From Arabidopsis thaliana (taxonomy: Eukaryota > Streptophyta > Magnoliopsida > Brassicales > Brassicaceae): a stretch of DNA of 64,000 nt. This document shows positions 1 to 34,440 of this stretch, piece by piece. The DNA lies in contig NC_003076.8 in the NCBI RefSeq assembly GCF_000001735.4, forward strand, positions 15,689,835 to 15,753,834. Direction: 5' to 3'. Below the pieces are notes generated by a model. That model did no database searches. It was not told the origin of the DNA and worked only from the letters and a program-made list of their open reading frames with translations. Made by a program: the position numbers and the translations under genes. Numbering within the stretch: position 1 is the stretch's first letter; every line of letters begins with the position of its first letter.

Positions 1-2936
1 CATGTCAAAAAGGAGATGAAGATGTAAAAAGACGTTTCATGTTGATACGTAAGAGAGGCAATGCCTTATATACAACAACATGATTTAACCTAGTGTAGCT
101 ATACAATCTAAGTGGGCTCGGGAGAGGCCTCATAGCCCAATATATCTTAGATTATATATTTACAACATATATACTTTGCAAATCTGCTATAACTTGACGA
201 CCAAAAAAAAAAAACTGATATAACTTATGTAAGTTATCTATTCCTACGTCAATTAACCAGAGACTTGCTTAATCTGTCTTGATAAGCAAATTTACAACAA
301 ACACGAACAAGTCTTCTATGTAAATTTTCAAAATCCTGCTTGTATTTTAAATTCAATGGTATAGTGAGAATATTTCAAAACTGGTTGTTTGGGTAGGAAA
401 TTCATTAGGTGCATTGATCTTGGTTATTTTCAAAATTCAGTGGTCTTTTTGGAATAATACTTATCTCTTATAAAACGTAATGACTAATTCAAATCAGGAA
501 AAGTACGTTAAAACTAAAATATCAAATTAAGCAAAAGACATCATTTAGTTGGTAAATATCCCAGTCTCTAACCACTGCCAGAAAGACAAAAGTAGTGACC
601 AAATTTCTAGCATGTATGTGGCCTTGTAGAGATCAACCATTTCACTTTGTGTGTATCTTTTTTTCAACAAGACATGCTTTATAAAACTCTCAATCAAATT
701 GATACTATGATTTCGGGGGAAAGTAATAATAAGACTGTCTATATCATATTTCTCGCATGATGAGTCACTTGGGATATGACTTTGGGTTTGTTTTGAAGGA
801 TTGAAGTGTGTTTGTGTACCCCAAATAGATTCCAGTTATTATTTCATGATGAAAGTTTTTTTTTCTTTTTGACAAGTAAAAGTGTGTTTTTTCTTTTTAC
901 TTTCCCCTTCATCAATAGTTATATTTTATGATTTTTAGATGGAGTTTTAGTCTTTGTTCAAAAACAAAAAAACTGTAGTTTTAGTAGTAAATTGATGCAT
1001 TTATACGAAAGTTAGTTTTTCTGTTTTATGGCTTGTTTACACTAAACGTTTTTTAATTTGAGTAGTTTTATCTTTTGTAGCAACTAGCAACATTAAAATA
1101 AAGACATGATTAGGTATCCATGAAAAGCGACATCATAAAGACTTGATTTGAAAAATTATTTAAAAAAGACTTGATATTAAGTTACGTTGACTAGTATTTT
1201 ATCCTTGTAATTTTGTCTATAATACTTTAACAACATATAAAATTTTGTTTATCAATATTTGAACTTGAATGGTTTAAACAAAACACACACAAACCACTAG
1301 ATTACAATTACATGTCTCGATTATTCTTGTAATTTTATCCGATTGAGTAGTTTTTGCTGCTCTTAGACAACACGTCGTACAATTTTTCACCTACTTTATC
1401 TTTCAATCTTTGGAAAGTGAGGAAAAAAAACATGCAACCTTACGACTGAGACCATTTTTAGAGCAACTTTTAAAACACATATTTTGCAAATTTGCAAATT
1501 TTTCAAATCAAGCACTAAGCATTTTTTTTGCTTAGATTCAGAGGTTCATGAAGAATTTGAATGTTGGAACTTGGAAGCACTTGACTTAAACACAAAAAAA
1601 AATAAAAATAAAGAGCTCTTGGCTTAGATCGAGGAATGGATCCGATCGTTAGATCATTGTGGTTCTTATACCATGTACAGCTTGATGAGAGATAGAGATT
1701 GGAAGAATATGTTATTGACTCTTATAATGATAAGCTTTGGGTTACATATGTTTACATAATAAAATGGTTTCCTAATCTAAGATAGAACTAAATCTGTACA
1801 TATCAATATAATAAATATACAACATCTTCATATTAACTTGTGGATCTTCTATATCCTTCTACAGTATAGAATTTTTGTTAGTAGCACGAGTATACAGCTT
1901 TAATATTCATAACCTCTGATAAACTTTGTCCATTCATTAAATTATTTCACTAACTATTTAATTGTGAAAATAATTAAAATATTTAGAAGTTTTCATGAAT
2001 TACAGAAAATATTTCATCCATTATTACTGAAAAAGAAAACAAGATTTTAATAACTACAAAATTTGACGTACGAAATGGTTGGTTTACATAATAATTGGTA
2101 GACTTGCTCAATAGCAAATTCATAGCATAGACAGGTAGATCAGTAACTAATCTATAACTAAAGTAGACACTTCTATCGTATGAAAAGTAGACTTCGAATA
2201 CTTAAACAATAAGAAATTGTTTAAGTTGATCATTTTAGCTATTTAAATTTGCCTGTTTAGGATTATTTTCTCTTACAAAAATGCAAGAATAAATCAATAT
2301 AGGAATAATAATATAAAAAAGATCAATATAGGAAAAGTAATTCACGTGGAAAGCAATAACTACTTGGTGAATATCCCACTTTTGAACTATTACAAGTAAT
2401 TGCAACATCAAGAAAACAAGAAACCGTGATTCAATTTGTGTTTATCTTCTTTCAACAAGACACGCAAGCTTTCTACAACTCATGCTTCCATCAAGATGAT
2501 ACTTTGAATATGTACATCAATTTTGAAGTTTTTTATATCCAACAAAATATATCAGAATTTAACTAGGTATCTTTTCAACTATGAAAGTGTGAAAGTTATT
2601 TCTTACAGATTGTTTTATCCAAACCTTATATTATAAAGTTAACGAGGAGCTTTTCCAACTGTGAAAGACTTTTCTTGCAGTTCTTCACCCCAAAAATAAA
2701 AAATAAAGTAAAATAACTCTAAAAGACATAATTAGTAAAATGTAAGACTAAAATCTATATGGGAAAAGTTGATATATTATAATATAGAAACTTGGTACAT
2801 AATCCAGGTTTTATTTTGTTACATAAATATTTCATAGTAGTGTATTCCTTTAATTAAGTGTTTCAATGATAAATACTTTTTTTTCTTTTTTTTGGTAAAA
2901 GATGATAAATACTCTTAAACGACTTAGATGATCAGT
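1..2936. other. gene-free flank of the germin-like gene
   Basis: No convincing coding region is seen here. The stretch is AT-rich. Two short segments, about 545-720 and 2348-2515, resemble each other in the same orientation: both contain a TTGGTRAATATCCCA word, a TTTCAACAAGACA-type word and a GATACT word in the same order. This fits duplicated flanking DNA of a tandem germin-like gene array of which only the last member is inside the window. Confidence 0.5.
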
Positions 2937-3712
2937 TCATATGGACCCAAACTTGGCCTGAAGTTCTTTGACAACACTTGCATCCAACTGGAACGCCCTG
3001 GCAAGAAGCTCTGGATAAATCGGAGGATTGGACCCAAACACAGTGTTTGCAATTGTGATAACACCTGCGTTCTGGCTACTCAATCCCGCAAAAGCAACTG
3101 CTGGAATTTTCCCCACATTTACCTGAAAATGGATCATTCCTATGGGGAACACGAAAACATCACCGGGGTGCAATACTTTGGCGAATAACCGGTTGTTATC
3201 TTGATTGGAAGAGACAAAACCGACGTATAATGTTCCTTCGACAAGGACAAGGATCTCTGAGCCACGAGGGTGCGTGTGAGGTGGATTTTGGCCATGCGGT
3301 GCGTAGTCTATGCGGACCAATGATATTCCCATGGTGTTTAGCCCTGGGATCTGATCAACATTAACAGTGGTCACATTAGAGCCAACTTGATTATTGGTGT
3401 TCCCGGGCACATTGAGACCTGAGAAGAAAAAATCTTTTGCATCGACTCGCTTCGGGTCTTTACAAAACCTACCATTCACAAAAACTGCATGTAGAAATAT
3501 AATATCAAAGAGTATATATTATATTACTACGTCAAAGTTAATCATAAGGAGAAAAGTAGAGAAATAGATAACCGGAGATTTCTTTACGTACCGCCTTTTA
3601 GGTCATCAATGGCAACACAGAAGTCTTGGAGTGGACTTGGATCATAAGCATTGACAAAGGAAAGGACCAAAGCAATTATGGCAAAAGGGACAAGAGATTG
3701 AGAAACCCTCAT
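2937..3712 (-). CDS. GLP2A: germin-like protein, subfamily 1 (GLP2A/GER2 type)
   Basis: Secreted cupin of the germin-like family, expected in the cell wall as a stable oligomer that binds manganese. Enzyme activity varies in this family (superoxide dismutase or none is usual in Arabidopsis members). Two exons, 3712-3592 and 3484-2937, with GT-AG borders, give 222 residues, the normal family length. A signal peptide of about 22 residues ends in FVNA. Two cysteines (about 32 and 48) would form the conserved disulfide. Germin box 1 ([10 protein letters not shown]) supplies two His and a Glu around 110-117, and box 2 ([15 protein letters not shown]) gives the last His at about 159. An NVT glycosylation site is present. 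A TATA-like CTATAAAT lies about 60 nt upstream of the ATG. The symbol rests on near identity to remembered GLP2A/At5g39190; tandem siblings are very similar, so it could be another member. Confidence 0.93.
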
Positions 3713-3765
3713 TATTGCTCGCTCTTAATTTGTTATGCATGTATACTTGGTGAATCCTCATTGCT

Positions 3766-3780
3766 TTAAAATTTATAGGA
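3766..3780 (-). promoter_or_regulatory. TATA box of the germin-like gene
   Basis: On the minus strand the sequence reads CCTATAAATTTTAAAG, a good plant TATA box, about 55-65 nt before the ATG at 3712. That leaves a short 5' leader, as is usual for germin-like genes. Confidence 0.5.
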
Positions 3781-4472
3781 CAAGAGCATAGAAGTCATAT
3801 TTGACATGGAATGGACTAAATAATTAATGTTTAATGAAATTACACAAGTTTGGTACGGACTTTTAGTTACAAGAGAGCATTTAAACAAAAATGACCGGTA
3901 GATGGAATTCCTTTAGAAAGATTAGCCAAATGTTGATGAGTAGATGTCAAAGAACGTAATTAGAGAGTCCCCACCCACCTATTAGATGAAATCAAATTTG
4001 TATTATTATTTAACACACGATCAAAAGTTTCATAGGAAGAATATAGGTTGCATATAGTGTGAATGGAATAATCAATAATGGACTGACCAAAAAAAACATA
4101 GATTATAACTTACGTTCATAATTATATAAAAGTATTAAACACTTGAAATTTTAACCGACTAAGAAAAATGCTTGTTATGTTATAAAAATAGCATATATAC
4201 AGAATTTGTTTTTTTTTTATCACTACATTGTTTTCATGTATTTGGGAGGGACCAAATTTATAATTTATAAAGCGTATATATGCTAAATAATATATAGAAA
4301 ATATTTACAGAATACTTTATTTTTTCATTCCATCGACACATTAAGATTACGTAGTATCTGAATTTCGTTACATAGGAATATATAGGATACAATCGGTAAT
4401 TACCTTGTCTAATGTCTCGCGTCTCTTGGACAGCTATGACCTAAATAATTGACATGACAAAGAGTAATAACC

Positions 4473-5208
4473 TCAATTTTTCACCGAAAAACAGAGACAA
4501 CAAGAAAGCCAACCACCAGCACCAGCACCAGCACCGCCCTGTTTCGAATCATCCGGGTACAATCCGGTCTTCGAGTCAAGTCTTGATAGTTCTCTTTTTC
4601 CACTTTCACTCTTCGTGTTTAGTGATGTCTTTCGCTCTTGTTGGTACTCTCCTAATCTACAAAGGATTTTAAAAATAAACCAATAGACCTCATAAGCACA
4701 ACTCAATTAATTAAAACCGATTTTTCAGTCCAACCAGTCTGGTTTTAACCGAGCAAATTGGCATGGAAGATTAGAGAACGACTTACGTGGGAAATGCGAA
4801 AGAAGTTGTACTGTTATTACTTGTTTCGGAGTGACAAGACTTGGTTGGAGAAATAGGAATCTGTTGTCGTGGATCCGGTTTAGGAACATTGGTTAAGCCA
4901 TCTCGATTACCGGTTTTTGGTCCGGTTTCCACCATGGTTATATTGACTTCTTTGGTTCCAGCGTCAGTCGGAGCAATTTTGTTATCAATGTTATTGTTAT
5001 AGTAGCTAATATAGGGCGAAGCAGTATATTCGAAATTGGTGAGTTCTCCAGATTTATACATCTTGGAGAAACTATGGTCTCCCATGTGAATACTGAACAA
5101 AGACTCGTTCGATTGGATACTCCATTCTTGTTTTGGAGTTACCGAGGTTGCAAAAACCGAATGTGGAATCCGATCCGGTTCATAGCCTGGTTTAGTTTCC
5201 TGGTCCAT
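4473..5208 (-). CDS. unnamed plant protein with C-terminal W-S-C-C motif
   Basis: Two exons, 5208-4787 and 4656-4473, joined at a GTAAGT donor and a TTTGTAG acceptor, keep one frame and give 201 residues. The stop that would follow FAFPT lies in the intron donor, which supports splicing. Visible features are a WSIQSNESLFSIHMGDHSFS segment at about residues 27-46, a serine/threonine- and asparagine-rich middle, and a Gly/Ala run leading to a WLSCCLCF tail. The SLFSIHMG and WxSCC pattern occurs in a small family of uncharacterised plant proteins, so I give no function. The ATG (MDQETKPG) follows a further acceptor (GGAGACAG), so a 5' untranslated exon near 5290-5330 is likely. The Gly/Ala run comes from a CACCAG repeat. 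Confidence 0.75.
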
Positions 5209-5410
5209 TTGTGTACCTGTCTCCAGAAAAAAATATGAGATATCAATCAATTTATGTAATCAGATTTCTTCAACAAATGGAACATTTGTAACCAATAGAA
5301 GAGCTCTCATCACCTTTGATCAAGTTCAAGCTGAGAGTTCTTCAAGAGCCAAAAGGTTGAAAAGAACAATTTCTTCTTTTAAAAAATGATGTGAGGAAAA
5401 TTGATCAAAG

Positions 5411-5660
5411 CTGTGTCCTCATTAATAATGATTATTTTTCGTTTGATAACAAACGTAATTAAACTAACTAATCTCCATTAGAGAGTTAGTTATAATTTTT
5501 AAAACCGAAAAACTTTGTGGATTTCTGGTATAAGTTATAACCAAATCCTTGTGGTCATTAATAATGACTACTTTTTAGATATATTAATAAAAACTAACTT
5601 AACTCCATTAGAGATTTTTATGAATTAGGAAAAACAATTTAGACTTCTGTTATAAGTTAT
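5411..5660. repeat. diverged direct duplication, period about 139 bp
   Basis: A CATTAATAATGATTA-type word at about 5418 recurs at about 5557, and both copies end in a shared TATAAGTTATAAC word. The two copies have many substitutions, so the duplication is old. It lies just upstream of the preceding minus-strand gene. Confidence 0.55.
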
Positions 5661-6295
5661 AACAAAAAAAAAGGGTTTGTAAGAAATTTTGAAAAATTCA
5701 ATGGCTGGGAGCCTAACTCGGAGCTGTTATTATAATAATGCATCAGAAAGTGTTTCTGCGATTTTAATCTCATCATTAACTCTCTTAAATCTTCTATTTC
5801 TATATTTAGTTGTTCTTATTTTTTCAACTAGTTACATACAAATCTTGAACTTATTTTACGTTGGTCGTTCCTTTTGGAAGTTGAACCTTGTACTTCTAGT
5901 TCTAGTTTGAAATCTTTGGGGGAAATGATTTACGTATGGTCAAGGTCAAGTATTATATATTAACGGTTTTAACAAATAACTACTATTAACGGTTGGTTCT
6001 AAACCTAGAAAAACTACATATTTAAGTTTAGAACATCTTGCTTGATAAAAAAAAGTATCTATATTTTGTTTAACTATTTTTGTTTTTATGTATGAATTGG
6101 TATATTATATATGGACATATAAAATGACAGATTAAGTTTTTCTCGAAAGAAAAAAACCACATAGAATTCATTTTAAAAGGGTTTCAGTTAATATCTATTT
6201 TTTTGTAGTTTCATGTTCGAGAGTTATACATTTTTGGGAAATCACATGATGAGACTTTAATATGCTTCTCATTGGTGAAGTTTTATTGGTTCATA

Positions 6296-6694
6296 CTAGT
6301 TTATTAACCCCTATTACGCGGGGGTTTGTTGTTATCGATTTTTTAAATTTATTTTTTGGTTTAGTAATCATTTAAATGAGGTTTGTTGTTATTAATTTTT
6401 AATATATATTTCTGTTTAGTAATGCAAAAGTACTATTATAATTTGTTTTTGTTTCTTTCACATAAATATTTTTATATAAATTTTTAGTATCATTTACGTT
6501 ATTTAACATTTTATTTTAATAAGAAAGAAAATATATATCGGATTAAATTTAGGTATGAAACATATTGCAAATATGATGTGTCATTTTCTCTTACTTATTT
6601 ATATTATCAAAGACGTTGTTGTTAATATAGCAATATTAAAAATATTTTCAAAATATAACTGAAAATAAACTACCAAAATATGTACACATTTGGA
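6296..6694 (-). mobile_element. Helitron 3' end (non-autonomous, ATREP-like)
   Basis: Read on the minus strand the element ends in CTAG followed by T. Ten bases inside that end is a hairpin with an AACCCC/GGGGTT stem (6306-6311 and 6321-6326). A CTRR end, a nearby hairpin and insertion before T are the standard Helitron 3' signature. The 5' end was not found; the element probably runs to the right, past the hAT insertion at 6695. The exact subfamily is unknown. Confidence 0.6.
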
Positions 6695-7640
6695 TAAGGT
6701 GTCAAAATGGGTCAAAATTCATGAGTCGACTCAACTCAACTCAACCCGTGAACCCTAATGAGTTTAAAGTTTTGACTCAAATGAGTTGATGAGTCAAATG
6801 AGTTGATGAGTCAATTGGTTTGATGAGTAAAATGAGTTGGGTTGTAATGGTTAATGGTTTGAATGGTTTACCTAATTAACCCATCAAGTTTTGTAAAATT
6901 GAATTAAACCAACTAAAATCTCTAAACCAATGCCAATTTAAATTTAACCAACACAACTAAACCAATTTAATAAAATTAATATTTTTCCAAATTTCTTAAA
7001 TATACAAGCGATGAAATTGAAAAAAAAAGTAAACTCGTAATTTTCCACCAAAAAACATAAACCCGTGATTTTCCTGCCAAAAATTTAAACCCGTGATTTT
7101 CCCGCCAAAAACGTAAACCCGAGATTTTTCTGCCAAAAACGTAAATCTATAATTTTCCCGCCAAAAACGTAAACTCATAATTTTCCCGCTAAAAAACATA
7201 AACCCGTAATTTTCCCGCCAAAAACGTAAACCCATGATTTTCTCGTCAAAAACGTAAACCCGTGATTTTCCCGCCAAAAATGTAAATCCGTGATTTTCCC
7301 GCCAAAAACGTAAACCCGTAATTTTCCCGCCAAAAACGTAAACTCGTGATTTTCCCGCCAAAAACGTAAATCCGTTAAAAGTGGAATCCGTAAATATCAT
7401 AAGTTTGATGATAATGAATTAATAATAATAATTATTTATTATTGTTTTATAATAATAATTAATTAAATTATTACTTAAATGGGTTAATCCATTTAACAAC
7501 TCAACCCATCAAATTAAATGAGTTATGGGTTGACCTAACCCATTTAACAAAATGAGTTGGGTCAACCCATAACTCATTTAACCCTAAACTCATTTGATTA
7601 TAAGTTAAGTTGAGTTGGATTATCCATTTTGACACCCCTA
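6695..7640. mobile_element. non-autonomous hAT element with internal minisatellite
   Basis: Imperfect terminal inverted repeats read TAAGGTGTCAAAATGG on the left and TAGGGGTGTCAAAATGG on the right. A perfect 8-bp target duplication, CATTTGGA, flanks them at 6687-6694 and 7641-7648. An 8-bp duplication with TAGGGGTG ends is diagnostic for hAT. Sub-terminal regions are rich in TGAGTTGA/TCAACTCA words in opposite orientations. There is no transposase; the 946-bp interior is mostly a 28-bp tandem array. The open frame that crosses it on the minus strand is a by-product of the repeat. Confidence 0.85.
7021..7376. repeat. 28-bp minisatellite carrying E2F-like sites
   Basis: About 12-13 head-to-tail copies of a 28-bp unit lie inside the hAT element. 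Each unit has an A-rich spacer around CGTAAACCCGTG and a core TTTTCCCGCCAAAA. Seven units keep the exact core (starting near 7096, 7152, 7209, 7265, 7293, 7321 and 7349); the rest differ by one to three bases. TTTCCCGCC matches the plant E2F consensus TTTSSCGC/TTTCCCGCC. Confidence 0.85.
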
Positions 7641-7649
7641 CATTTGGAC

Positions 7650-9340
7650 ATACATATATTTCTCTTACTTTAAGATTTTGTTTGCTATTAATCAAATAAT
7701 TAAACAGTTATATTTTTTTTTACTAAAATTCCGGGTTGACATCTCCCCATTTTTACCCTTTTTATCAATGGCAAGAGTTAATTTGATTTTTGTGATGATT
7801 TGAAGAATTCTTTTGGGTTTGGGAAAACCAAGATATCCTCAAAGACGCATATGTAAGCTGCTGCAAAAATTAAATATTAACTGAGTAAATCTAATCAAAT
7901 ACGGATAGCTCCCTATCAAGAGCAATAAGAACAATGACACAAATGTTTTAGTATGTAGTTACGACTACTGTTCTATATATTGGTTTGTTGGTTTTTTCAT
8001 TTATCGATTTTTTGAACTGTTGACTAATTCTTTTTTTGTTTAACGATTTTAAAAAATTTCTTCGACTTTATTATCCTTTGTAGACTTCTTTTGTTGCTCA
8101 TTCACTTATCAATAAGTTTTTTTTTTATTGAACAGTACTTTACATTATTTCTATCAACTTATTTTTTTCTTATCTACTATTGAATAATTCATTTATATTT
8201 GACAACTTACTTGTTTTCCTGAAGTGACTTATTCTAAAGCTAGCAACTACTCTTCTTTTTCGATGTTGCAATTTTTCACGAAGAGCTCTCCACTTGATCC
8301 AAAACCATTTTTTTCATGCTCGACTGTGAATATTGTGTCCATGTAGAATTTGAGAAAATTAGAGATGTATATGGAAAGAAATGTGGTTGCCGATGAGAGG
8401 CACGATTCCTTATCGTTCTTTCAGCTTGAATCCGCGTATTTCTGATTTATATCACCATACCATTGCCAAAATTTCAAGCATCTAATCTATACACTACGGC
8501 CTGAGAATCGTGTAGATATATATGAATTTTCTCTTTTTTAACAGCATGTTTTTTTATAAATTCATAAATTAAAAACGTTAAAAAATATAGTTTTATATAG
8601 TAATAATGAAATTTTACTTTTTTCTTATTTCCATATGATATACTTTCAAAGGCTTACATATCTCTTCTTTCCATATAATAAATATCTTAATATCTTAATA
8701 TACTTTTAAATGCTTACATATCTCTTCTTTCTTTATCACATGAAATCATTGAAACTAACCAAAATCATCACCATAACCAAAAATACTATACGTTAAAGAA
8801 ATTGATCCTAGGGCAACCACCAACCAAAATAATTCGTTTTTTGTTCCTTATTATTATAAGTTACCAAACAAATTAGGTTTTGATCAAAACTTACTTCATA
8901 TCATACGATGAAACCTTCATGCATCTATCCACGCTAGCTGCTATAAGTTCCTGCATTGAATCAAATCAACATATTAACCACTGGATTCAAACAACTTAGG
9001 TAACATTAAACATGTAAAACTAAAAACTAACCACATGACGTTAAATAAAACTAAAAACTCACCATATGACGTTGAGTGACATTGTAGACCATGTGTATCA
9101 AAAATCAAATTGTCCGGAATTGTGTCATGATGTTGCTTGCATACACACATCCTACAATCATAAGAAAACACCATTAATTAATATGTGTCGCAAAACAACC
9201 AAAACGTATCAACACAAAAAAAAAAAAAAAAAGTGGGTTAGTTATGATCACTTATGATCTAGAAGTGAATACCACACAAAGTATTTATATCATGTTAAGA
9301 GGCAGTGTACAATCGCTAAAAAAGGAACATTACAAACTTT
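7650..9340. other. AT-rich gene-free stretch
   Basis: No gene is supported. A local direct duplication of about 40 bp with period about 61 occurs at 8640-8740 (words like GCTTACATATCTCTTCTTTC). Part of this stretch may belong to the Helitron whose 3' end is at 6296, but its 5' end was not recognised. Confidence 0.4.
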
Positions 9341-9352
9341 TAGATGTGAATT

Positions 9353-9655
9353 CGGCCCAAGCATCTGTTGTCCAGTGGTAGGAGAAGATTTGGGGAAGGG
9401 TGAAACTTTCAGATCCGAGTTCGATCCTCCCTGAAAACAAAAATCACATTTGTTTGGGAAGTCTGTTAATTGGTCCTTGGCCCAATTGGTTAATCTGGTA
9501 GTCAGAAATGCAGGCGGCCTGACTACCCTCTGGCATTAGTCGGAAAGCATTCCAAACTGGGGACAAACAGTGTGGTGGTCCTTCGGAAAGAAGTCCTATC
9601 TGAAGTACTTCGGTGCGTTTTCTACCGAAACTAACCGGAAAAAAAAAAAAAAAAA
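9353..9655 (+). mobile_element. tRNA-derived SINE with poly(A) tail
   Basis: About 303 bp with a 5' head holding pol III-like boxes: a box A-like GTCCAGTGGTAGGAG near 9370 and a box B-like GAGTTCGATCC near 9417. It ends in a run of 18 or so A residues. A perfect 11-bp target duplication, AGATGTGAATT, flanks it at 9342-9352 and 9656-9666. Structure and target-site length fit reverse transcription by a LINE. I cannot name the subfamily with certainty (Brassicaceae SINEs of the AtSB/RAthE kind are candidates). Confidence 0.8.
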
Positions 9656-10484
9656 AGATGTGAATTTGTAAAATTATCATCTATTCATTATTATCCATGT
9701 TACTTTTAAAGAACATTTACTTTTTTCATAAAAAGATAAAACAACTATATTTGACATTTATTGAGATATAGCATTATCGACATAAAATATAAAAACAAAT
9801 CTCCTTTATTTTATCTGAGATATGAAATTAAATAAGGACAACAGGGTATTTTAATATATTCGGCCAATATATATATATCAATAGAAAAATAAACTTTTTT
9901 TTACCCGTGATGATTATGATAACAATATTAGACAAACAAAAGAATTTCTTAAAAAGATAGTATGATATTGTGAATTTCTACAGTGCTAACAATGCGTCTC
10001 TTAACCTCAACTTATATATTTTGAAACTTTATTCAAGTTGATACGATTAAGAACACCACCATAAAACTATGTCATTGTTGCTTTAACTCTTCACAGAACA
10101 AACACATCTTAATCCTTTATCACTTAACCGTCATTTGAAAAAATCCTTTACATATTTCCTTCTTATGGTGCCTCTTTCCATCCTCTTATGATTTTGTTTA
10201 AATCGTACGTGTACTATCTTCCAAATTTTTCACATGCTCTATATTTTTTTTAAAAAATCTCTTACTTTCCTTGAAAGTAAAAGCTTTTTTCAAGCTTGTC
10301 GAAAGATAGGTTAGTTAAGTTAATAAACTCGTTATTTGAATTTTTAAGAATAAAATATTTGTTTTGCTCTGTTTTGTTTTCTATTATTCTAATAAAAAGT
10401 TTTAACTTCTAAATTGGTTCTTAACTTTATCACTTTCTCTCCTTTGATGTTATTGTTTAAATCCTCTTCACCTTCACGCTTTCT

Positions 10485-10777
10485 AAACCATATTAACATA
10501 TAATCACGTTAGATTATCTAGCATTGAAATTTAGCAAATTTTGTTTTCTATTTTCTTATTTCCATATGTTACTTTTGAAAAATTAACAAACTTTTTTTCT
10601 TTTTTCTTTTTATTCATAAATATAATAAAAATAATAAAAAAATATAGAAATTAAAAAGTTAATTAAAGTCATGGCTAAAAAATGTAAACCAATGAGATGG
10701 TTAATCCTGATTGGTCGTTTAAAAACTTATGTGGACGCTTTTAGAAGCGAATAGCCTCAACTTTTATATAGTATAGA
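10485..10777 (-). mobile_element. Helitron 5' segment, copy A (ATREP3-like)
   Basis: Read on the minus strand it starts with TC inside TCTATACTATATAAAAG, preceded by A, which is the Helitron 5' pattern. It shares about 290 bp with 12005-12298. The shared block stops at the same point on both copies (AAACCATATTAACAT). No CTRR end with hairpin was found at that side, so these may be 5' pieces of a longer element. Confidence 0.65.
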
Positions 10778-10924
10778 TAAATACCTTGCTTATATTCCTA
10801 TATTCTTGAACATATTAAGAGTTTATAATACCTTGCTTTTAATCTTGTGAGCTGATTAATTTATGTGATGATTTTAACTATAGTATATTTGATAGTATGA
10901 TATTGAAAAATTAAATCCGCCATC

Positions 10925-11370
10925 ATAGTCGTTCAATGTTCGAGCAGAAGGCTGACCTATTGACAAAGGCTCTCGGGCGAATCAAGTTTAAAGAAATGAG
11001 GGAGCTCATTGGTGTGAAGGACATGGGACAAGGTGACTTCAAGTTTAGGAGGGAGAATGTTGGATTAAGCTTGAAGAAAGCTGATGAAGAAAGTAATATT
11101 AAACCGAGTTATGGTTTAGTTCCTAACCGAGTTATGGTTTAGAAAGTGATCATCTCAAATCTCTTTAGGAGTTATCTAAATCTATGTTTTCCTATTAGGA
11201 TTAGGACTAATGCTTTCATATAAATAGATGTGTCGAGTTCTAATATCAATGTGAGAGTTGTATTAAGAGATTGAGAGAGAAAGCTTAAGTTTTGTGTAAG
11301 TTTCTTAAGCTATAAAGTGAGTTATACTTTTATATTCTTGAGTTCTTAAACAACAACCAAACCTAGATTC
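10925..11370 (+). mobile_element. copia LTR-retrotransposon 3' remnant (fossil)
   Basis: The peptide QKADLLTKALGRIKF is the conserved end of the copia RNase H region. It is followed by a purine-rich tract and an LTR-like start TGTTGGATT at about 11058; the LTR probably runs to about 11365. Gag, protease, integrase, most of the reverse transcriptase and the 5' LTR are absent, so the element is broken and old. The family is Ty1/copia; the subfamily was not assigned. Confidence 0.7.
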
Positions 11371-12004
11371 TATAAACTGAGAGTAATCAGGCGTTGAAAA
11401 AATAAAGACTACTGGAATAAGAGCAAAGATATTCAAACATCAATGTGTGGTTTAAGTTTGAAAACTACCCTCTTTCTTTTCATAGTAAATTGAAATTTCT
11501 AACCAAAACGAAAAAAAACACACACACAAAAAAAAAATCAGAGCCAAGAGACTACCAATAATCAATATCCAACACATTTCACATCAACTCGTTCATTCAA
11601 TCTTTTGATAAAATCCCTCCCATGTTACCCAAAACACAATTCAAAAGATATAAATCACCAAAAAAATATCGATATTGATTCGTAGAACAACAAAATAACT
11701 ATACACGTATAGCATCAACATCAAGTGAAAAATCTAGCATGGTAAGAAATTCGACTCATACAAAGAACCAAAGCAATATAAAACAAACCATAATATCAGA
11801 ACTATATATTTAATAAAAAGTCCTTTTGATATGGTGTGACCGAGACTTGTATTTATAGCTAAATGTTTAGGACAAACCATCGGAAGTTTTACTTTTTAAT
11901 TTTTTTTATACAAATATTTGTATATAAAAAACAATTTAACATATATTTGTATACTTGGACGATTTAACATTTCATTGTATTAGGAATATAATAGTTACTC
12001 CTCA

Positions 12005-12298
12005 AAACCATATTAACATGTAATCACGTGAAATAATCTAGCAATTAAATTTAGCAAATTTTCTTTTCAACTTTCTTATTTCCATATGTAACTTTTGAAA
12101 AGTTAACAATTTTTTTTTGTTTTTTCTTTTTAATCATAAATATAGTAAAAATAATAGAAAATAATATAGAATTTAAAAAGTTAATTAAAGTGATGGCTAA
12201 AAAATGTAAACCAATGAGATGGTTAATCCTGATTGGTCGTTTAAAGCTCACGTGGACGCCTTTATAAGCAAATAGCCTCAACTTTTATATACTATAGA
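12005..12298 (-). mobile_element. Helitron 5' segment, copy B (ATREP3-like)
   Basis: Same orientation and end points as the copy at 10485-10777. It starts on the minus strand with TCTATAGTATATAAAAG preceded by A. The two copies differ by scattered substitutions and small indels, so they inserted or were copied long ago. Its open frame is not a gene. Confidence 0.65.
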
Positions 12299-12390
12299 TT
12301 GCATAATTCTTCTTGTGATAATATTATTGATCTTTTCTACAATAATACAATTTGTTGTCTTGTCTTCATTGTTTAGTCCACATAACAAAT

Positions 12391-12786
12391 TAGGGCCGAG
12401 CATTGGGATATGCGAGTTGGGTTTGGGTAAAAGCCGATTAGGTACGGATTCTTTGGGTAGAAGAGTTTAGAACTCAATATATTAAATAAAAAATATATGT
12501 TCGGTTTTGGTTCGGGTCCTTTCAGGTTTAGGTCGCTTTGTATATAGATTTCAGAACAACTTAATAAATTATCGGATAAATACCCATATTTTCGGGTAAA
12601 TACTCGCATTTCAGAGTAAAAGTTTGGGTATTCAAGTAAAATATTAAGATATTTTTGGGTTCAGATTTTCGAGTATAGGAGTTTAGGATCCAATAAAATA
12701 AATCTAAATTTTTATTGTGTTTAGAATCTAATTTTTTGGGTTGGTTCGGTTCAGATATTCTGATCCAATTTTTTTCCCCAGCCCTA
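12391..12786. mobile_element. hAT-type MITE, 396 bp
   Basis: Short inverted ends read TAGGGCCGAGC on the left and, in reverse complement, TAGGGCTGGG on the right. Flanking 8-bp target duplications are TAACAAAT (12383-12390) and GAACAAAT (12787-12794), seven of eight matching. The interior is built of GGGTTTGGGT/TTCGGGTA-like words and has no coding capacity. Confidence 0.7.
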
Positions 12787-13212
12787 GAACAAATCATAAG
12801 TGCATAACGATAATGAGCAGTAAGGTACTTAGTAGTTTGCATATATGGACGAAAGATATTATTTGTATCAAGTGTGGTACAACTATGGGCCCACGAATAT
12901 TCAGTATCCAGTTTTGTACAAGCCCATGTGATCCTTGCAGGCCAATTGACAATTTTAAATATATTTATAGCAACAATACAAATATATATTTTTCAGTCAA
13001 ATTTGAAAATTGCAACCGAAACTAGAGAGCAGAGTAGAGATCAACAACTGGATCAAAATTTTGAATTTTTATAAAATCTATAGAATTAAGAATATATAAT
13101 ATGTTAAAACTGAATTTACTCCAAACCTATATTGTACAAAGCTGATTAGAATTAGTAATCATTTTAGTTCCACATTTCTAGCTTTTACGAGGCTATTCGG
13201 GGCAACTATAAC

Positions 13213-13241
13213 TGGCCCTATTTGGCTCATCAGTGGCCCAT
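13213..13241. promoter_or_regulatory. Site II-like promoter elements upstream of CRR7
   Basis: TGGCCC and TGGCCCATTA (complement TAATGGGCCA) occur about 155-185 nt before the CRR7 ATG. TGGGCC/T elements bind TCP factors and are common before nuclear genes for organelle proteins. The position fits, but binding is inferred. Confidence 0.4.
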
Positions 13242-13396
13242 TAAAGATATATATGAGTTACATTCATAATTTTAAGGAAAAGAAATAGTTGGTGTATGCT
13301 CCTCGTAATATCATCTTATCTATAACAACTACAAGAAGCTTACATTGCTGCTACTAAAATACAAAATTGTTGGAAGTCATTTTTCAAGATATCAAA

Positions 13397-14165
13397 ATGG
13401 AGTGTTCGCTGCAGAAACAGCTTTTCAACAACGGAGATAAGCTCTTTAGTTGTAAGCTCTAACACTTTCCTCCCTCATATTCACATCTATTAGTGCAAAT
13501 CAAGAATAACTTAAACCAATCCATTACAATTCTTCCATTTCTTTGCTTTCAGCTCGACATAACCGACGGGTTTCGATAGAACAAGTCCATGTGACAGATT
13601 CTCTTTCCGTAAACTCGATAAACCTGTTTCATAAACCTATATGTTATCCAATATCATCCATCATCACTTCAAGAAAGAGCAAAAGCCATTTTAGTGTAAG
13701 TGTTGGTTAATTGCAATTTTGTAGAATATTTTGTAAGTTGATAACATTTAAAAGATTATGTTGCATAATTTTTGGAAATTTGTGATTTCAGTCATTTTGC
13801 AATCCCGGAAATTAAATTACTGAACTCATGAGGTTAAAGGTTAACTTAGTATGATTTAACAAATGTCTAGTTAATGTGATTATATAATATAGGTTTGTGC
13901 AACAAGGAGAAGAAGGGTGCATTCGAACTCGGATACATACGTACTGTTAGAGGCAGGACAAGATGAGCAGTTTGTGACGGAAGACGAACTCAAGGCTAAG
14001 CTCAGAGGGTGGCTCGAAAATTGGCCGGTGAACTCTTTGCCACCAGACCTGGCTAGGTTCGATGACCTTGATGAAGCCGTAGATTTCTTGGTTAAAGCTG
14101 TATGTGAACTAGAAATTGATGGAGAAGTGGGTTCTGTTCAATGGTACCAAGTTCGTCTTGAGTAA
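13397..14165 (+). CDS. CRR7: CRR7, chloroplast NDH complex assembly factor
   Basis: Three exons, 13397-13451, 13553-13695 and 13893-14165, give 156 residues, the length I recall for CRR7 (At5g39210). CRR7 is needed for accumulation of the stromal arm of the chloroplast NADH dehydrogenase-like complex, which drives cyclic electron flow around photosystem I. The N-terminal ~75 residues are basic and Ser-rich with a CATRRRR stretch near the end of the presequence, as expected for a transit peptide. The conserved acidic body ([16 protein letters not shown], then [19 protein letters not shown]) fills the last exon. All three junctions keep the frame and use GT-AG sites. Confidence 0.92.
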
Positions 14166-14470
14166 TTAAATAAACGTATTATGTGTTTTGAATGTAACAA
14201 GCACATCTGTTTAATCTAGTAGTTTGGTTTGTTCTTTAATAGATAATTGCTATTGTTGTGGATGTCAAAATCTTGTGTGTTGGTTTTAATAATCGTCAAA
14301 GAGAATTAGGGTCATAGCTTTCGTAAATAAGAAGACACTACTCGAACTAAACAATATGCGAGTTTGATTCTTTCATCTTTGATAGTCGGCACTAAATATC
14401 CAAATAAAAATAAAGATTTTTTAGTCTCACCTTTAAATTTGAAATTTGGTTTTGTGATTTGAATCTCTTC
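14166..14470. other. CRR7 downstream region
   Basis: Probable 3' untranslated and intergenic sequence; nothing else recognised. Confidence 0.4.
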
Positions 14471-14471
14471 T

Positions 14472-14800
14472 TTTTTTTCGTCAAACATCATTTTATTAAG
14501 TTAGCGGACGGAGGTTTTCTTCTAAAGAGAGTCAATCCAGAGTCGATGTGCTTACATGGAGAAAAAAGATTCTCGTACTCTGACCTTCTTAGCTAGACAA
14601 TCGACACAAATATTGTTACAACGAGGAATCTTTTGTGCTTAATTAGCTGGTGCGAAATTGATAGCTTATCTTCCAATTTCCCTTGCTTTGGGGGATACAT
14701 ATTCTACCTTGTGGAACTTATGACACTTAATGGGCTTCGTATTGGATTGGATTTGTGAAAAATTGACATTGCATTTGCCCGTTAGTTCTTCAGGCGGGAT
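14472..14800 (-). mobile_element. LINE 3' fragment (RNase H-like C-terminus)
   Basis: On the minus strand a short peptide stretch reads IPRCNNICVDCLAKKVR, which resembles the C-terminal part of the plant LINE RNase H domain (an IPRxxNxxAD-LA-type motif). Weaker similarity (INFAP, AN, AQK) precedes it with stops. It ends in a short A-rich tail at 14470-14480. The piece is a few hundred bases long and clearly degenerate. Confidence 0.5.
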
Positions 14801-15940
14801 GGTCTACTAGTACTAGAAGAACGAATTGTAGATGTAGATTCTGTAATAGTTGGCTGTTGGGATAAACAAAAACTGCATCCGATCACATCAGAAGACTGAG
14901 CTGCATATAACTGTGATTTTTATGTAAATAATCTTACAAAAGTTTTAATAACATTAAAATTCTTATATTGTTTATTTTGGGGGACAAAATTGTGTTTTAA
15001 AAAATTACTTTATATATTAGTTAATCTTATCGAAATCTTAGTTCTGATTTTTTCAGTTCCTCATGTAATATTTTAAATAATTACCTAATTTAACTAACAT
15101 ATTCATAATTATCAAATTAATTGATTAAATCATAGTATATAATTTTGAATGGGGTTTAGTGTTGTTAATGCATTTGATTGTGTTTATATATATAAATCTC
15201 AGAAAGATTTATGCACCCAATAAGTGTAGGTTAATTTTATAGTAAAAAATGAAGTCAATTTTATAGTTAAGATGATCAATAATATAGAAACTTTTAAAAT
15301 AAAATAATAAGATTTGCACCAATAGCGTGAGAGAGAAACTCAACTTTGATATATTATGACTTAATAAATGACGTTAATTCTTATGTAAATTAAGTTATAA
15401 CATATACAAGGATTCATAAGTGGTCAAACTGCAATTAAAGTATTTTTTAAAAAATGTAGCAAACTAAAAATAAACTATTGTATTTTGAGAAGACATGTGG
15501 CAGAAGTACAATATGCACATTTATATGTCATTCTAGAAGAAACTTTATTTTATAAGATTAATAACTGATTAAATAACAATTTACCATGTAAATGTAATGA
15601 TACAGTGATTAAGTAAGATTCTACTACGCAAAGGTAACCTTATTTAACACACGTTAATTACTGTTTGGAAGATATTATGGACGGAGAGAAACAAAAAAAT
15701 GTTATTAGTTGTGGCTCTACGTTTTTTTTGTCTTTAAGCCTTAAAAATTAGAAAGCGTGTAAATTGTCAGAAAACTTGTGTGGTCATTTCAAAACAAAAC
15801 AACAAAAGGTAGTAAATAAAAATAACAAGATCGTAATGAATGAGCTTGGTATAAAAACAAGAAAAAAATAACGAAGTTGGGGGTAGTTGCGTTGCACTTT
15901 GATTTAAATTCTATTCAAATGGTTATTGTCCAAACATAAC
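14801..15940. other. AT-rich gene-free stretch
   Basis: No coding region, RNA gene or clear repeat was recognised. It includes the promoter of the hydrolase gene, with a CTATATATAGG TATA box at about 15950. Confidence 0.4.
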
Positions 15941-15948
15941 ACTCTTTT

Positions 15949-15958
15949 CTATATATAG
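15949..15958 (+). promoter_or_regulatory. TATA box of the alpha/beta hydrolase gene
   Basis: TCTATATATAGG lies about 125 nt upstream of the first ATG at 16079. A purine-rich leader (GAGAGAGAGAAATG) precedes the start. Confidence 0.45.
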
Positions 15959-16078
15959 GTAGTCTCTTCAATGTCACAAATAATCGAATCACACAATATT
16001 AAACACTAAATTATTCACAGTTTTCTTGGAGAAAAGATTCAAGTACAAGTACAAGCAGAGAAAGTGAGAGAGAGAGAA

Positions 16079-25860: not shown

Positions 25861-26209
25861 TTTAATTAGAGTCTTTTTCCTTTGTTTTTAATATTTGATG
25901 TTCAAAGTTTTTGCGTACAGATTAGAAATCATTTAATTTTTGTATATTTTAAACCAAAACATATTCGACTAAATAAAAAAATAATCTTCAGAATATCAAT
26001 CGTAAAAGTCAATAAAAACTAATTACTTTTGCATTAAGAACCAAAAATATCATCTATTTTCAAGAGAGATTTGCAAAACTATCCTTTTTTTACTATCTTT
26101 TTGCAATAATGCCCTTTTATATTGTTTATTTTTAAAAATATCTCTTCCCTTGAACAGAATGACCAAATTACCCTCATTTAATAAGAACATGTACTTGGAA
26201 ACTTTCAGT

Positions 26210-26300
26210 TTCCCGCCAAATTTTTGGCGCCAAAAAAAAAAATTTCCGTCCCGCCAAAAAAAAAAAAATTCCGCCAAACATTTTTTCCCGCCAAAATTTT
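26210..26300. promoter_or_regulatory. cluster of E2F-like sites, left end of MULE
   Basis: TTTCCCGCCAAA (26209-26220), the palindrome TTTTTGGCGCCAAAAA (26221-26236) and TTTTCCCGCCAAAA (26283-26296) match TTTSSCGC-type E2F sites. Similar sites, inverted, recur at 27533, 27644, 27672, 28143 and 28168 on the right side. Confidence 0.55.
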
Positions 26301-26329
26301 TTCTCGTAATTTTTTTTTCCCAGCCAAAA

Positions 26330-27500
26330 AATGCTTTTAAAAATCCTTGTAAATTTTTTTAAAACTCTTTTAAAAAACCTTGAAAAGTTTTTTAAAAGCT
26401 TTGGTAGTTGCTAAAAAGCATTGTAAATCATTTTAAAACCTCTTAAAATCTTTATAAAGTCTTTAAAAACATAGGTAAATACTTTAAAACCCCTTTTTTA
26501 ACCTTTGTAAATCATTTTAAAGCTTTTTACAATAGTTTTACAATCGTTTTTTAAGCATAAGTAAGTAGCATTGAATGATTTACAAGAGATTTTAAAAGCT
26601 TATAAAAGGGTAAAACATGATTTACAAGGGATTTAAAAAAGGTTATCATGGTTTACAATCGTTTTTTAAGCATAAGTAAGTGGCATTGAATGATTTACAA
26701 AGAATTTTAAAAGCTTATAAAAGGGTAAAACATGATTTACAATCTTTTTTAAAGCATAAGTAAGTGGCATAGAATGATTTACAAGGATTTTTAAAAAAAG
26801 TTAGCATGGTTTACAATGTTTTTTAAAGCATAAGTAAGTGACATTGGAATGATTTACAAGGGATTTTAAAAGCTTATAAAAGGGTAAAACATAATTTATA
26901 ATCGTTTTTAAAGCATAAGTAAGTGGCATAAAATGATTTACAAGGGATTTTAAAAGTGTTTGTATGGTTTACAATCGTTTTAAAGCATAAGTAGGTGACA
27001 TTGAATGATTTACCAGGGATTTTAAAAGGGGTTAAAATGATTTACATTCGTTTTTAAAGCATAAGTAAATGTCAAAAAATGATTTCCAAGGAATTTTAAA
27101 TCTTTGTAAATCCTTTTAAAACTCTTAAAAGTCTTTACAAACATTTTTTAACTCTTAGAAAAAGAATTGTAAGTATTTAAAACATTTATAACTCTTTTTG
27201 AACCATTTTAAAACTCTCAAAAGGTTTTAAAAAGATTTACAAGAGTTTTGAAAGGATTTTTTTATAAATTTTTTTAAAATCTTTTAAAAACTCTTGTACA
27301 TCTTTTAAAACCCTTTAAAAATCCCTTGTAAATATTTTAAACACTTTTAAACCCTTTAAAAATCTTTAAAAAACTCTTGTAAGTCTTTTAAAGCCCTTTA
27401 AAATCCCTTGTAAATCTTTTAAAACCCTTTTAAAATCTCTTGTAAATCTTTTAAACCCTTTTAAAATCTCTTGTAAATCTTTAAAATATTTTAAAACTCT
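26330..27500. repeat. two families of internal tandem repeats
   Basis: Family one is a 20-25 bp unit of the form CTTGTAAATCTTTTAAAAC with Pu/Py runs, repeated many times at 26330-26520 and 27060-27510. Family two contains AAGCATAAGTAAGTG and ATGATTTACAAGGG, with seven copies starting near 26553, 26668, 26752, 26826, 26911, 26983 and 27057 (spacing 72-115 bp). Both are built on the TTTTAAA/GTAAAT theme. Confidence 0.75.
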
Positions 27501-28032
27501 TTTAAAATCCCTTATAAATTTATTTCCCGCCAAACAAAAAAAATTACGGGAAAAATGTTTTTGAATTTTTTTTTGGCAGGAAATGTTTTTTCGAAACTTT
27601 TTGGTGGGAAAATTTTGACGGGAAAAATGTTTTTGGAAAAAAATTTTGGCGGGAAATTTTATTTTTTGAAAAATTTTGGCGGGAAATTTTATTTTGGAAT
27701 ATTTTAGGCGAAAATATTAATATTTCATTTTGTTAACCTAAATCAATTTACAAATAAGGGTAAAATGGTCATTAAAAATTTAAATAGTGTATAATTGAAA
27801 AGGGTAAATAGAAAATGGTAGAATTGAAAAGGGGTAGTGTGAAAAGTGCATTAGAAAAAAAATTTCTAAAAAACTTTATGCGTTATTTTTGGAAGTTTAA
27901 AAAAAAAAGTCATTTTAAAATAATAAAAAAAATTAGTGTCATTTGTGTCAATCTCCCTAATATATATACATGTAAAATTACAGATTTAGAAAAAATAAAA
28001 GTATTATAAAATTTTATTGAAGTGTCAATCTC

Positions 28033-28382
28033 CCTTTTAAAATCTCTTGTAAATCTTTTAAAACCCTTTTAAAATCCCTTGTAAATCTATTTCCCGCTAA
28101 AAAGAAAATTTTTACAGGAAAAATATTTTCGAATTTTTTTTTTGGCGGGAAACTTTTTTTTCGAAATTTTTGGCGGGAAGTTTTTTCCGAAATTTTTTGG
28201 CGAAAAATTTTATTTTAGAATATTTTAGGCGAAAAATATTAATACTTCATTTTATTAACCTAAATCAATTTACAAATAGGGGTAAAATAGTCATTAAAAA
28301 TTTAAAGAGGTTATAAATGAAAATAGTAAATAGAAAAATGTAGAATTAAAAAGGGGTAATGTGAAAAGGGCATTAGAAAGAA
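28033..28382. repeat. second copy of the MULE right end
   Basis: About 350 bp repeating the segment around 27455-27860 in the same orientation: CTTGTAAATC repeats, the GGCGGGAA block, a TTAACCTAAATCAATTTACAAATA block and a GTGAAAAGKGCATTAGAAA end. The copies differ by several per cent and small indels. The LINE insertion begins immediately after this copy. Confidence 0.8.
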
Positions 28383-28524
28383 TTTTTTTTTTTTTTTTTT
28401 TTTTTTTTGAAAATAATGTTAAATTATATTCCAAAGAAAAACGTTTTTACAACAAGTGCAGCTTGGTTTTGAGAATTAGAGCTGAGAATAGTTTTGAACA
28501 AAAGAAAGAAACAGAGCTAAGAGA

Positions 28525-32699: not shown

Positions 32700-34440
32700 C
32701 ATTTTCATTTTTTTGTAGTCGACCACATAGATGTTATGAATGAGGTACATACATGAGTTTGTTTAGTAATGATAGATTGTCTTATAATTAGAACTATCAT
32801 TATCCTATCCATAAATATCTATATTATTAGTAAAACCTGATAACATCAACTAATAAACCAAATTACATTTCAGTAATTAACAAAGTCAATAAGAAAAGAC
32901 CACAACCTATTCGATTTCAGTATACATTCGATTTTTTTTTTTTCAAGTATCTTCTAGCTTTAGATATCAGAATAATCGACCATGAATCCAAGCAAACAAA
33001 GTTTTAACTTGAAGCTTTAACATAGATTAAATTGAGGGGCATGCGACTATTTCAAAGAGAAATTCAGTGTAGTCTATTATATTTAATATTGTTTTCTACA
33101 TTCTTACGTTCTTTAATTTTGTATTACTTTTTTGCACATTTTTTTGGGCTGATGAGCCACAATAGTTTTTAAGTAAATAAAAAACAACACTTTAAACAAA
33201 TTATTGCATCTTGTATTACTTAAAAATAATAAATATTTCTTTTATCTTTTTTATTTTTCCAACCAACATACTCTTACTCAAAAAAAAAAAAAAAAAAAAA
33301 TCACACATAATTACGTAAATTATTGTGTGAACAAATTCTAGTTTTAATAAATGACATTTAAACTAACAATCACCATAATTCTTAGTGAATAAAAAATCTC
33401 ATTTTTGGACTGCAGATATTTTTGTTTAATTAGTATCGAGTATTCAAATACCAAATTGTTTTTATAACCGGAACAAGGAACCATCATACAGTAGGAATCA
33501 AACTCAAATACACAAAATCAGAAGAGTGCAATCTTTTTCCCCTAAAAGTTGAGCTAACTACTGGTACTACACTACACCCTACACCCTACCACTATAGACC
33601 AGTCATTAATGATCAGATTTTCAAATTACAATTTAATAAAACATAAACCCCATATAGTTTAATTACATGTAAGTGTTGCCTATCTATAAAAATCATTTTC
33701 TTTTCTATATATTAAGAAGTATCGTATGTAAGTGTTGCCTATCTATAAAAATCATTTTCTTTTCTATATATTAAGAAGTATCGTATGAAGAAAAGACTCA
33801 AAATTCACGTCAAATCATCCACTTTTTTTTCCCTGAAAATATCTACTTTCCATGTGATGTAGTTTTCTTGTTCCTTTCGCTTTATTCCCTATGTTTTCTT
33901 ATAAAAAGAAAAAACACAAAGAGAAGGAAAAAAGAAGTATAGAGTTTTTTTGTGTGTGGGGAAATAAGGTATCCTGATACTAAAACACAAGTCAGTGAAG
34001 AGTGTGACTACTGATCCCACAATCTGACCTCTTTGCTCTTGTCTCCCATGCTCGTCACTTATTTGTCCTCTTTCACGTTTATCATTTCGTTTTATTCAAC
34101 TCAATATATATGTCCTCACAAATTGTCATACTCCAAACAAAAAAATACGGCATAATCAATAACATATTTGAGTTAAGTGATAACGTCATTCTTAAATTAA
34201 AAGTGTGTAATATTAAAATAAGTTTTGTGGAAGATTAGGGTTAATTTTGCGAACAATTCTTGGGTTCATCCCTAAAGATGTTTTGAAATATTTCATTAAC
34301 ATCAAAAAAATTTCTTTTCTTATTTACCTCAAGAAACTAAGATTCGAATATAATTTTTGTTTCTTTTTGATAATGGCTTCTTATAAGAAAATTCATCCAC
34401 TTTTTATGAAGCAAATCTATATATTTTAGCAAAGTCAACT
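32700..34440. other. intergenic region upstream of the F-box gene
   Basis: AT-rich, without a supported gene. It holds a perfect 59-bp tandem duplication (listed separately) and a simple A run at 33278-33299. Confidence 0.45.
33669..33786. repeat. perfect 59-bp tandem duplication
   Basis: Two identical adjacent copies, 33669-33727 and 33728-33786, starting GTAAGTGTTGCCTATC. Identity is complete as read, so it is recent. Confidence 0.95.

Follow-up and report, generated by a model that had tools for sequence, protein, structure and literature searches.

A non-autonomous hAT element of Arabidopsis thaliana with an internal array of E2F-consensus sites

Why does a short transposable element carry a tandem array in which the same E2F-like sequence recurs in unit after unit, and does the element, the host or neither make use of it? 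The question is raised by a 946-bp element in the window, by which we mean the whole stretch of 64,000 nucleotides analysed here (G000:C5:15689835-15753834). We consider it probable that this is one non-autonomous hAT copy whose minisatellite of E2F cores was left behind by the deletion of a transposase gene, that the array would act as a passive docking sink for E2F, and that copies decay neutrally once they have landed.

The element and its array

Short inverted ends together with an 8-bp target site duplication are features of the hAT class. In the copy at window positions 6695-7640, the inverted ends agree exactly over 13 bases (GGTGTCAAAATGG) and CATTTGGA is present on both flanks as an 8/8 target duplication (Table 1). 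The matched ends and the perfect target duplication described in the initial annotation are thus confirmed, and the 946-bp copy is a non-autonomous member of the hAT superfamily. Between the ends, TRF found 12.6 copies of a 28-bp unit, in agreement with the earlier count of about 12 copies and seven exact cores. Seven cores are exactly TTTTCCCGCCAAAA, four further ones differ by one or two mismatches, and the twelfth unit, at 7041, is degenerate. Allowing up to two mismatches, TTTTCCCGCCAAAA has 25 matches in the window, where a single palindromic place contributes one match per strand. The expectation is 0.88, and 0 of 100 shuffles reached the observed count. The plant E2F consensus is WTTSSCSS. 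A loose form of it, TSSCGSS, is used in the available part of PMC5464667. The 28-bp spacing had also been taken to keep the sites at a near-constant helical offset, a description that is misleading: at 10.5 bp per turn, successive sites are rotated by 240 degrees, and therefore a given face of the helix is presented only once in three sites. A 134-aa minus-strand open reading frame (ORF) at 6996-7400 was rejected as a gene within the array, being merely the 28-bp repeat read in three frames.

Table 1. Features of the 946-bp element and its flanks (window positions).
Feature	Position	Strand	Remark
Target site duplication, left copy CATTTGGA, 8 bp	6687..6694	.	
Left terminal inverted repeat TAAGGTGTCAAAATGGG; usual form in the family TAGGGGTGTCAAAATGGG	6695..6711	+	
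Family left end, ~324 bp, without E2F core	6695..7018	+	
17-bp subterminal repeats TGAGTCAAATGAGTTGA	6773..6839	+	candidate transposase-binding region
28-bp minisatellite, 12.6 units; well-kept units with E2F-consensus core	7023..7375	+	TRF score 480
Exact core 1 of 7	7097..7110	+	
Exact core 2 of 7	7153..7166	+	
Exact core 3 of 7	7210..7223	+	
Exact core 4 of 7	7266..7279	+	
Exact core 5 of 7	7294..7307	+	
Exact core 6 of 7	7322..7335	+	
Exact core 7 of 7	7350..7363	+	
Family right end, ~261 bp; contains 32-bp inverted repeat 7514-7581	7377..7640	+	
Right terminal inverted repeat	7624..7640	-	
Target site duplication, right copy CATTTGGA, 8 bp	7641..7648	.	

Such a density of E2F-consensus sites could in principle serve the host, with the 946-bp copy enhancing the expression of a gene nearby in S phase, and in the part of PMC12595863 at hand E2F sites in MITEs of A. 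thaliana are described near genes and as polymorphic between ecotypes. However, the cores of this copy are exact in 7 of 12 units, the rest being altered, and the nearest ORF with a known domain (at least 100 aa, window positions 1-16000, introns not considered) is 3.2 kb away, which makes host use a barely plausible explanation. This ORF is a minus-strand Cupin (germin-like) frame at 2937-3479 (Cupin_1, 7e-53), and the ORF at 4783-5250, which is closer to the element, has no Pfam match.

The family, a coding relative and the origin of the array

We searched the genome (119,662,809 bases, 7 contigs) for further copies. Exact TTTTCCCGCCAAAA cores occur 1184 times (654 + 530) and the reversed pattern 0 times, an enrichment of the E2F-consensus motif within transposons whose setting was checked for the 416 cores that fall within 48 extracted complete copies. 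The core followed by the exact start of the family spacer (a 21-mer) is found 384 times in the genome and accompanies 295 of the 416 cores in the 48 copies. By scaling, ~541 of the 1184 exact cores can be attributed to the family, an estimate that assumes the 21-mer to be family-specific. The whole-element search gave 209 candidates, of which 40 were scored; these are sited on all five large contigs, and the best matches among them show 81-92% identity, the element itself excluded. The array region was matched in all 40, as expected, because they had been selected for similarity to a query that itself bears the array. Genome-wide, there are 77 matches to the left end alone at up to two mismatches. 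Among 14 further places found by the left end only, nine are complete with array, two have the array with the right end not found, two are coding relatives with array (L064; L067 with L087), and one is a truncated end without array (L063). The earlier proposal that the core is an E2F-consensus site amplified by a transposon is therefore supported by a multi-copy, array-bearing hAT family.

The 48 complete copies comprise 38 from the whole-element search, nine from the left-end search and L053. Dropped from the family counts were L056 as a family-1 copy (a duplicate of L013), L012 and L042 (left end and array, failing the automatic end search), L055, L061 and L062 (array, right end not found), L063 (left end without array) and the coding relatives L064 and L067. 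All 48 share one layout, with a left end of ~324 bp, the array and a right end of ~261 bp. The number of units per copy ranges from 8 to 34 (median 18, partial end units counted), and exact TTTCCCGCC occurs 451 times in these copies, or 9.4 times per copy. Target duplications match at 8/8 positions in 31 copies, at 7/8 in 13 and at fewer in 4; the score is the best over small offsets, for which random pairs give 8/8 in 0.13% and at least 7 in 2.1% of cases. Two of the dropped loci have features of their own. L061 (G000:C1:16737780-16738560) is a rearranged element with two inverted left ends and cores on both strands. At L063 (G000:C2:6733010-6734510), the truncated family left end lies upstream of a frame encoding RNA polymerase Rpb3 domains (RNA_pol_L, 3.7e-11), ~0.45 kb from where that frame begins.

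The family ends TAGGGGTGTCAAAATGGG are also those of a coding relative, L087 with L067 (C4:2789600-2793680), which encodes the transposase domains zf-BED (2.3e-5), hAT-like_RNase-H (1.6e-20) and Dimer_Tnp_hAT (4e-29) and whose first frame, as it stands, stops at stretch position 2617. It contains 4.43 homologous units of 86.7% identity (score 180, with no score above 30 in 100 shuffles) at stretch positions ~3677-3803, that is, 3' of the transposase gene, and the array starts ~400 bp from the right end. The 4,081-base stretch contains three matches to WTTSSCSS, all within the array, and none upstream of the transposase gene in this one coding relative. The idea of E2F-timed transposase expression is weakened by this one coding copy, since the sites are downstream of the gene and none is upstream. 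Two deletion derivatives connect the coding and the array-only forms, as each retains part of this sequence next to its array. In L064, 4.3 units come after the beginning of the transposase frame (55 residues, 93%); in L092, 8.9 units come after sequence from beside the 3' end of the gene (partly judged by eye). No core was found near C3:8209830, C4:9796365 and C1:14069839 (L093, L094, L091), in stretches that may miss the element ends. Stretches of the coding element occur at 100% identity in three places (C4:2792180-2792629, C5:20631336-20631785 and C2:9634379-9634717; 339-450 bases), which may be taken as a sign of recent movement or exchange.

The simplest order of events would be an array 3' of the gene, then loss of the gene, then growth of the array. 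The array would first have stood 3' of a hAT transposase gene; an internal deletion of this gene would have left the two ends and the array. Slippage or unequal exchange would afterwards have lengthened the array, and the array-only copies would have spread through transposition in trans. The array may instead have moved from a non-coding copy into the coding copy; a single array-bearing coding copy was examined. The simplest order suggests a source for one set of transposon E2F sites, namely the region 3' of a hAT transposase gene, with multiplication after the gene had been lost.

The same layout bears on another explanation. hAT transposases bind subterminal repeats, and the array might belong functionally to the right subterminal region, where it would bind the transposase or set the length; the resemblance to E2F sites would then be secondary. 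Its position ~400 bp from the right end of the coding relative and the preservation of left end, array and right end in all 48 complete copies would fit such a role. But a unit number that ranges from 8 to 34 does not, the left end has its own subterminal repeats, and a single founder deletion accounts for the layout without any function. We therefore regard a subterminal role as decidedly unlikely.

Further carriers of the core

A second family (L049, L054 and L079-L086) has the distinct ends TAGAGATGTTAATGATGGG. Its target duplications, read by eye, match at 8/8 positions in five and at 7/8 in two of nine two-ended copies. Its left end, used as a query, yielded 27 matches, some of them weak (70-78%), and three of the weak ones (C3:8209830, C4:9796365 and C5:15640508) adjoin hAT transposase-like frames. 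For this reason the second family is likely to be hAT-like as well. In its arrays the units are 26-27 bp long and combine the same core with several other spacers. Over 237 units of this type from 11 loci (the ten above and the second array of L056, which has none of the second family's ends), agreement with the consensus is 0.906 in the core and 0.797 in the spacer. Among the loci compared, none is common to the non-array ends of both families. An eighteen-base sequence, ATTTTCCCGCCAAAAACG, is common to units of both, and an exchange between the families is therefore as possible as a separate gain.

Other loci carry similar sites. At L056 (G000:C1:8276000-8280500), a family-1 copy on the minus strand is followed ~0.6 kb on by a 26-27-bp array of the second-family type on the plus strand. 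With ends unlike those of either family, this second array is perhaps a further carrier of the core. Another repeat element is located at window positions 26080-28400 and has E2F-like TTTCCCGCC sites that are oppositely oriented towards its two ends. A search with its left part gave 184 candidates, of which 40 were scored. Its ends also match L052, L057, L058 and the flanks of L012, L018 and L032; neither family-1 nor family-2 ends match this element.

Change in core and spacer, and the role of the array

The initial annotation had proposed, as a check, a comparison of conservation in core and spacer. The 28-bp unit comprises 14 core and 14 spacer positions. In the 825 units that cover all 28 positions, partial units being excluded, CCCG is intact in 496/825 cores and 434/825 spacers, and the core is ahead in 28 of 38 untied elements (10 ties, p = 0.005). 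Selection on the core was not concluded from this raw intactness, since old unit types shared between copies are counted repeatedly. Private one-step changes at C/G positions are more frequent in the core (50/2158 vs. 37/2321 in the spacer, p = 0.09), also under a looser parent rule (62/2767 vs. 44/2982, p = 0.04), and private changes at A/T positions go in the opposite direction (16/3037 vs. 27/2607, p = 0.03). This test is not decisive, because recurrent changes are undercounted. Decay of methylated C was considered as well and set aside; C>T or G>A make up 46 of 133 private changes and 349 of 443 differences at C/G positions between paired copies.

These pairs are 24 disjoint pairs of copies, from which aligned units with fewer than 24/28 matches were excluded. 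Over all 14 vs. 14 positions, the core differs less (215/4666) than the spacer (325/4470, p = 1.7e-7), and the same was found for all C/G positions (179/1937 vs. 264/2118, p = 0.002) and for A/T positions (36/2729 vs. 61/2352, p = 0.001). Scaled by the rates at the element ends, observed over expected is 0.91 in the core and 1.51 in the spacer, a calibration with few cells from the ends (CG 89, CHG 21). Core and spacer did not differ significantly in CCCG context (137/1271 vs. 147/1247, p = 0.48) or in CG context (58/641 vs. 136/1267, p = 0.29), nor in the eight closest pairs (47/1564 vs. 50/1473, p = 0.61) or the five closest (19/914 vs. 25/856, p = 0.29). Thus, the better preservation of the core holds over the 24 pairs, both in the raw and in the scaled comparison, but not in the closest pairs, in CCCG context or for private C/G changes. 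Within the limits of these figures, core and spacer decay equally once a copy has landed.

The contrast between close and distant pairs leads to the question of selfish use, in which binding of E2F/RBR would aid the element, for example by opening it or by timing its excision in dividing cells, so that it was the lineages keeping their cores intact that transposed. Distant pairs show 168 core and 275 spacer differences, whereas in close pairs the numbers are 47 and 50. This contrast is borderline: the log odds are 0.56 for C/G only (bootstrap 0.08 to 1.02, p = 0.023), but 0.44 for all positions (95% bootstrap interval -0.07 to 1.03, Fisher p = 0.067), with p = 0.15 without positions 27-28 and p = 0.09 for CCCG. 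Unit types that are duplicated within an element more often have an intact core (71/87 vs. 272/622, odds ratio 5.7), and the spacer is also more often intact in them (50/87 vs. 191/622, odds ratio 3.0). The scaled rates and the second family, which repeats the core with other spacers and keeps it closer to consensus, would also speak for such a use. On the other hand, among 11 elements with an exactly repeated block of two or more units, the longest such block includes a broken core in 6, private C/G changes are as frequent or more so in the core, and the coding relative has no E2F consensus on the 5' side of its gene. Taken together, we consider selfish use of E2F/RBR binding unlikely. The wider proposal that transposon-level selection made the two hAT families carriers and multipliers of E2F docking arrays, with a coupling to dividing cells via E2F/RBR, appears improbable to a similar degree. 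Under it, the core would look protected only across old lineages, because landed copies decay freely. Selection on the core in active lineages may nevertheless have occurred, given the gap over the 24 pairs, the C/G contrast and the excess of intact cores in duplicated units.

Equal decay of core and spacer after insertion would also be expected if the E2F-like string were a pure accident of a minisatellite unit and never bound. This we hold to be highly unlikely: E2Fa binding to such sites is reported in the available parts of PMC12595863 and PMC4110626, and accident explains the data less well because the core recurs with other spacers in the second family. Passive docking of E2F on the array is likely, by analogy to what has been reported for transposon E2F sites as a class. 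Intact units would be docking sites for E2F complexes, and each copy, with several predicted docking sites, would act as a weak passive sink for E2F. The titration of E2F, the S-phase block and the replication-timed transposition suggested in the initial annotation are conjectural, as is any benefit to host or element.

Transposon-borne minisatellites are a general class, and the array shares with them its tandem structure, variable copy number and fixed ends; unlike in that class generally, the core of the unit fits a transcription factor consensus. Transposon-amplified E2F sites are already known as a class, too. According to the parts of PMC12595863 and PMC4110626 available to us, both reporting Henaff 2014, E2Fa binds the E2F sites carried by transposons in Brassicaceae, and these sites may dilute E2F; the portion of PMC13317346 at hand places the capture of E2F sites by transposons probably early in Brassicaceae. 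The link to this published phenomenon, which the initial annotation had made, holds. In that work (Henaff et al. 2014, Plant J 77:852; here via the available parts of PMC12595863, PMC4110626, PMC13317346 and PMC5464667), the E2F motif was likewise multiplied by MITEs, hAT included, in Arabidopsis and its relatives, and E2Fa binding and E2F dilution were already put forward. In contrast, our analysis describes a 28-bp array of 8-34 units, its 3' placement, a second family and tests of decay, any of which the 2014 paper may contain. BniHAT-1 and BniHAT-2 of Brassica nigra, as far as described in the part of PMC7385995 at hand, likewise have many non-coding copies with common hAT-type ends, whereas the element studied here has 946 bp and an internal minisatellite of variable length. 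No entry naming this array was found in a literature search that included the letters CCCGCCAAAA together with Arabidopsis and had Henaff 2014 outside its scope. The range from 8 to 34 units per copy, together with the different spacers of the two families, provides a natural dosage series for the question whether E2F is bound and diluted by such arrays, as has been suggested in the literature.

Two other tandem repeats were observed in the window. At 33667-33787, a 59-bp duplication is present in 2.1 copies at 100%, and it is probably recent because the copies are identical. At 50478-50611, an 18-bp repeat (TGGGCACCATGGGATGGG) is present in 7.4 copies, and its unit length would keep a reading frame.
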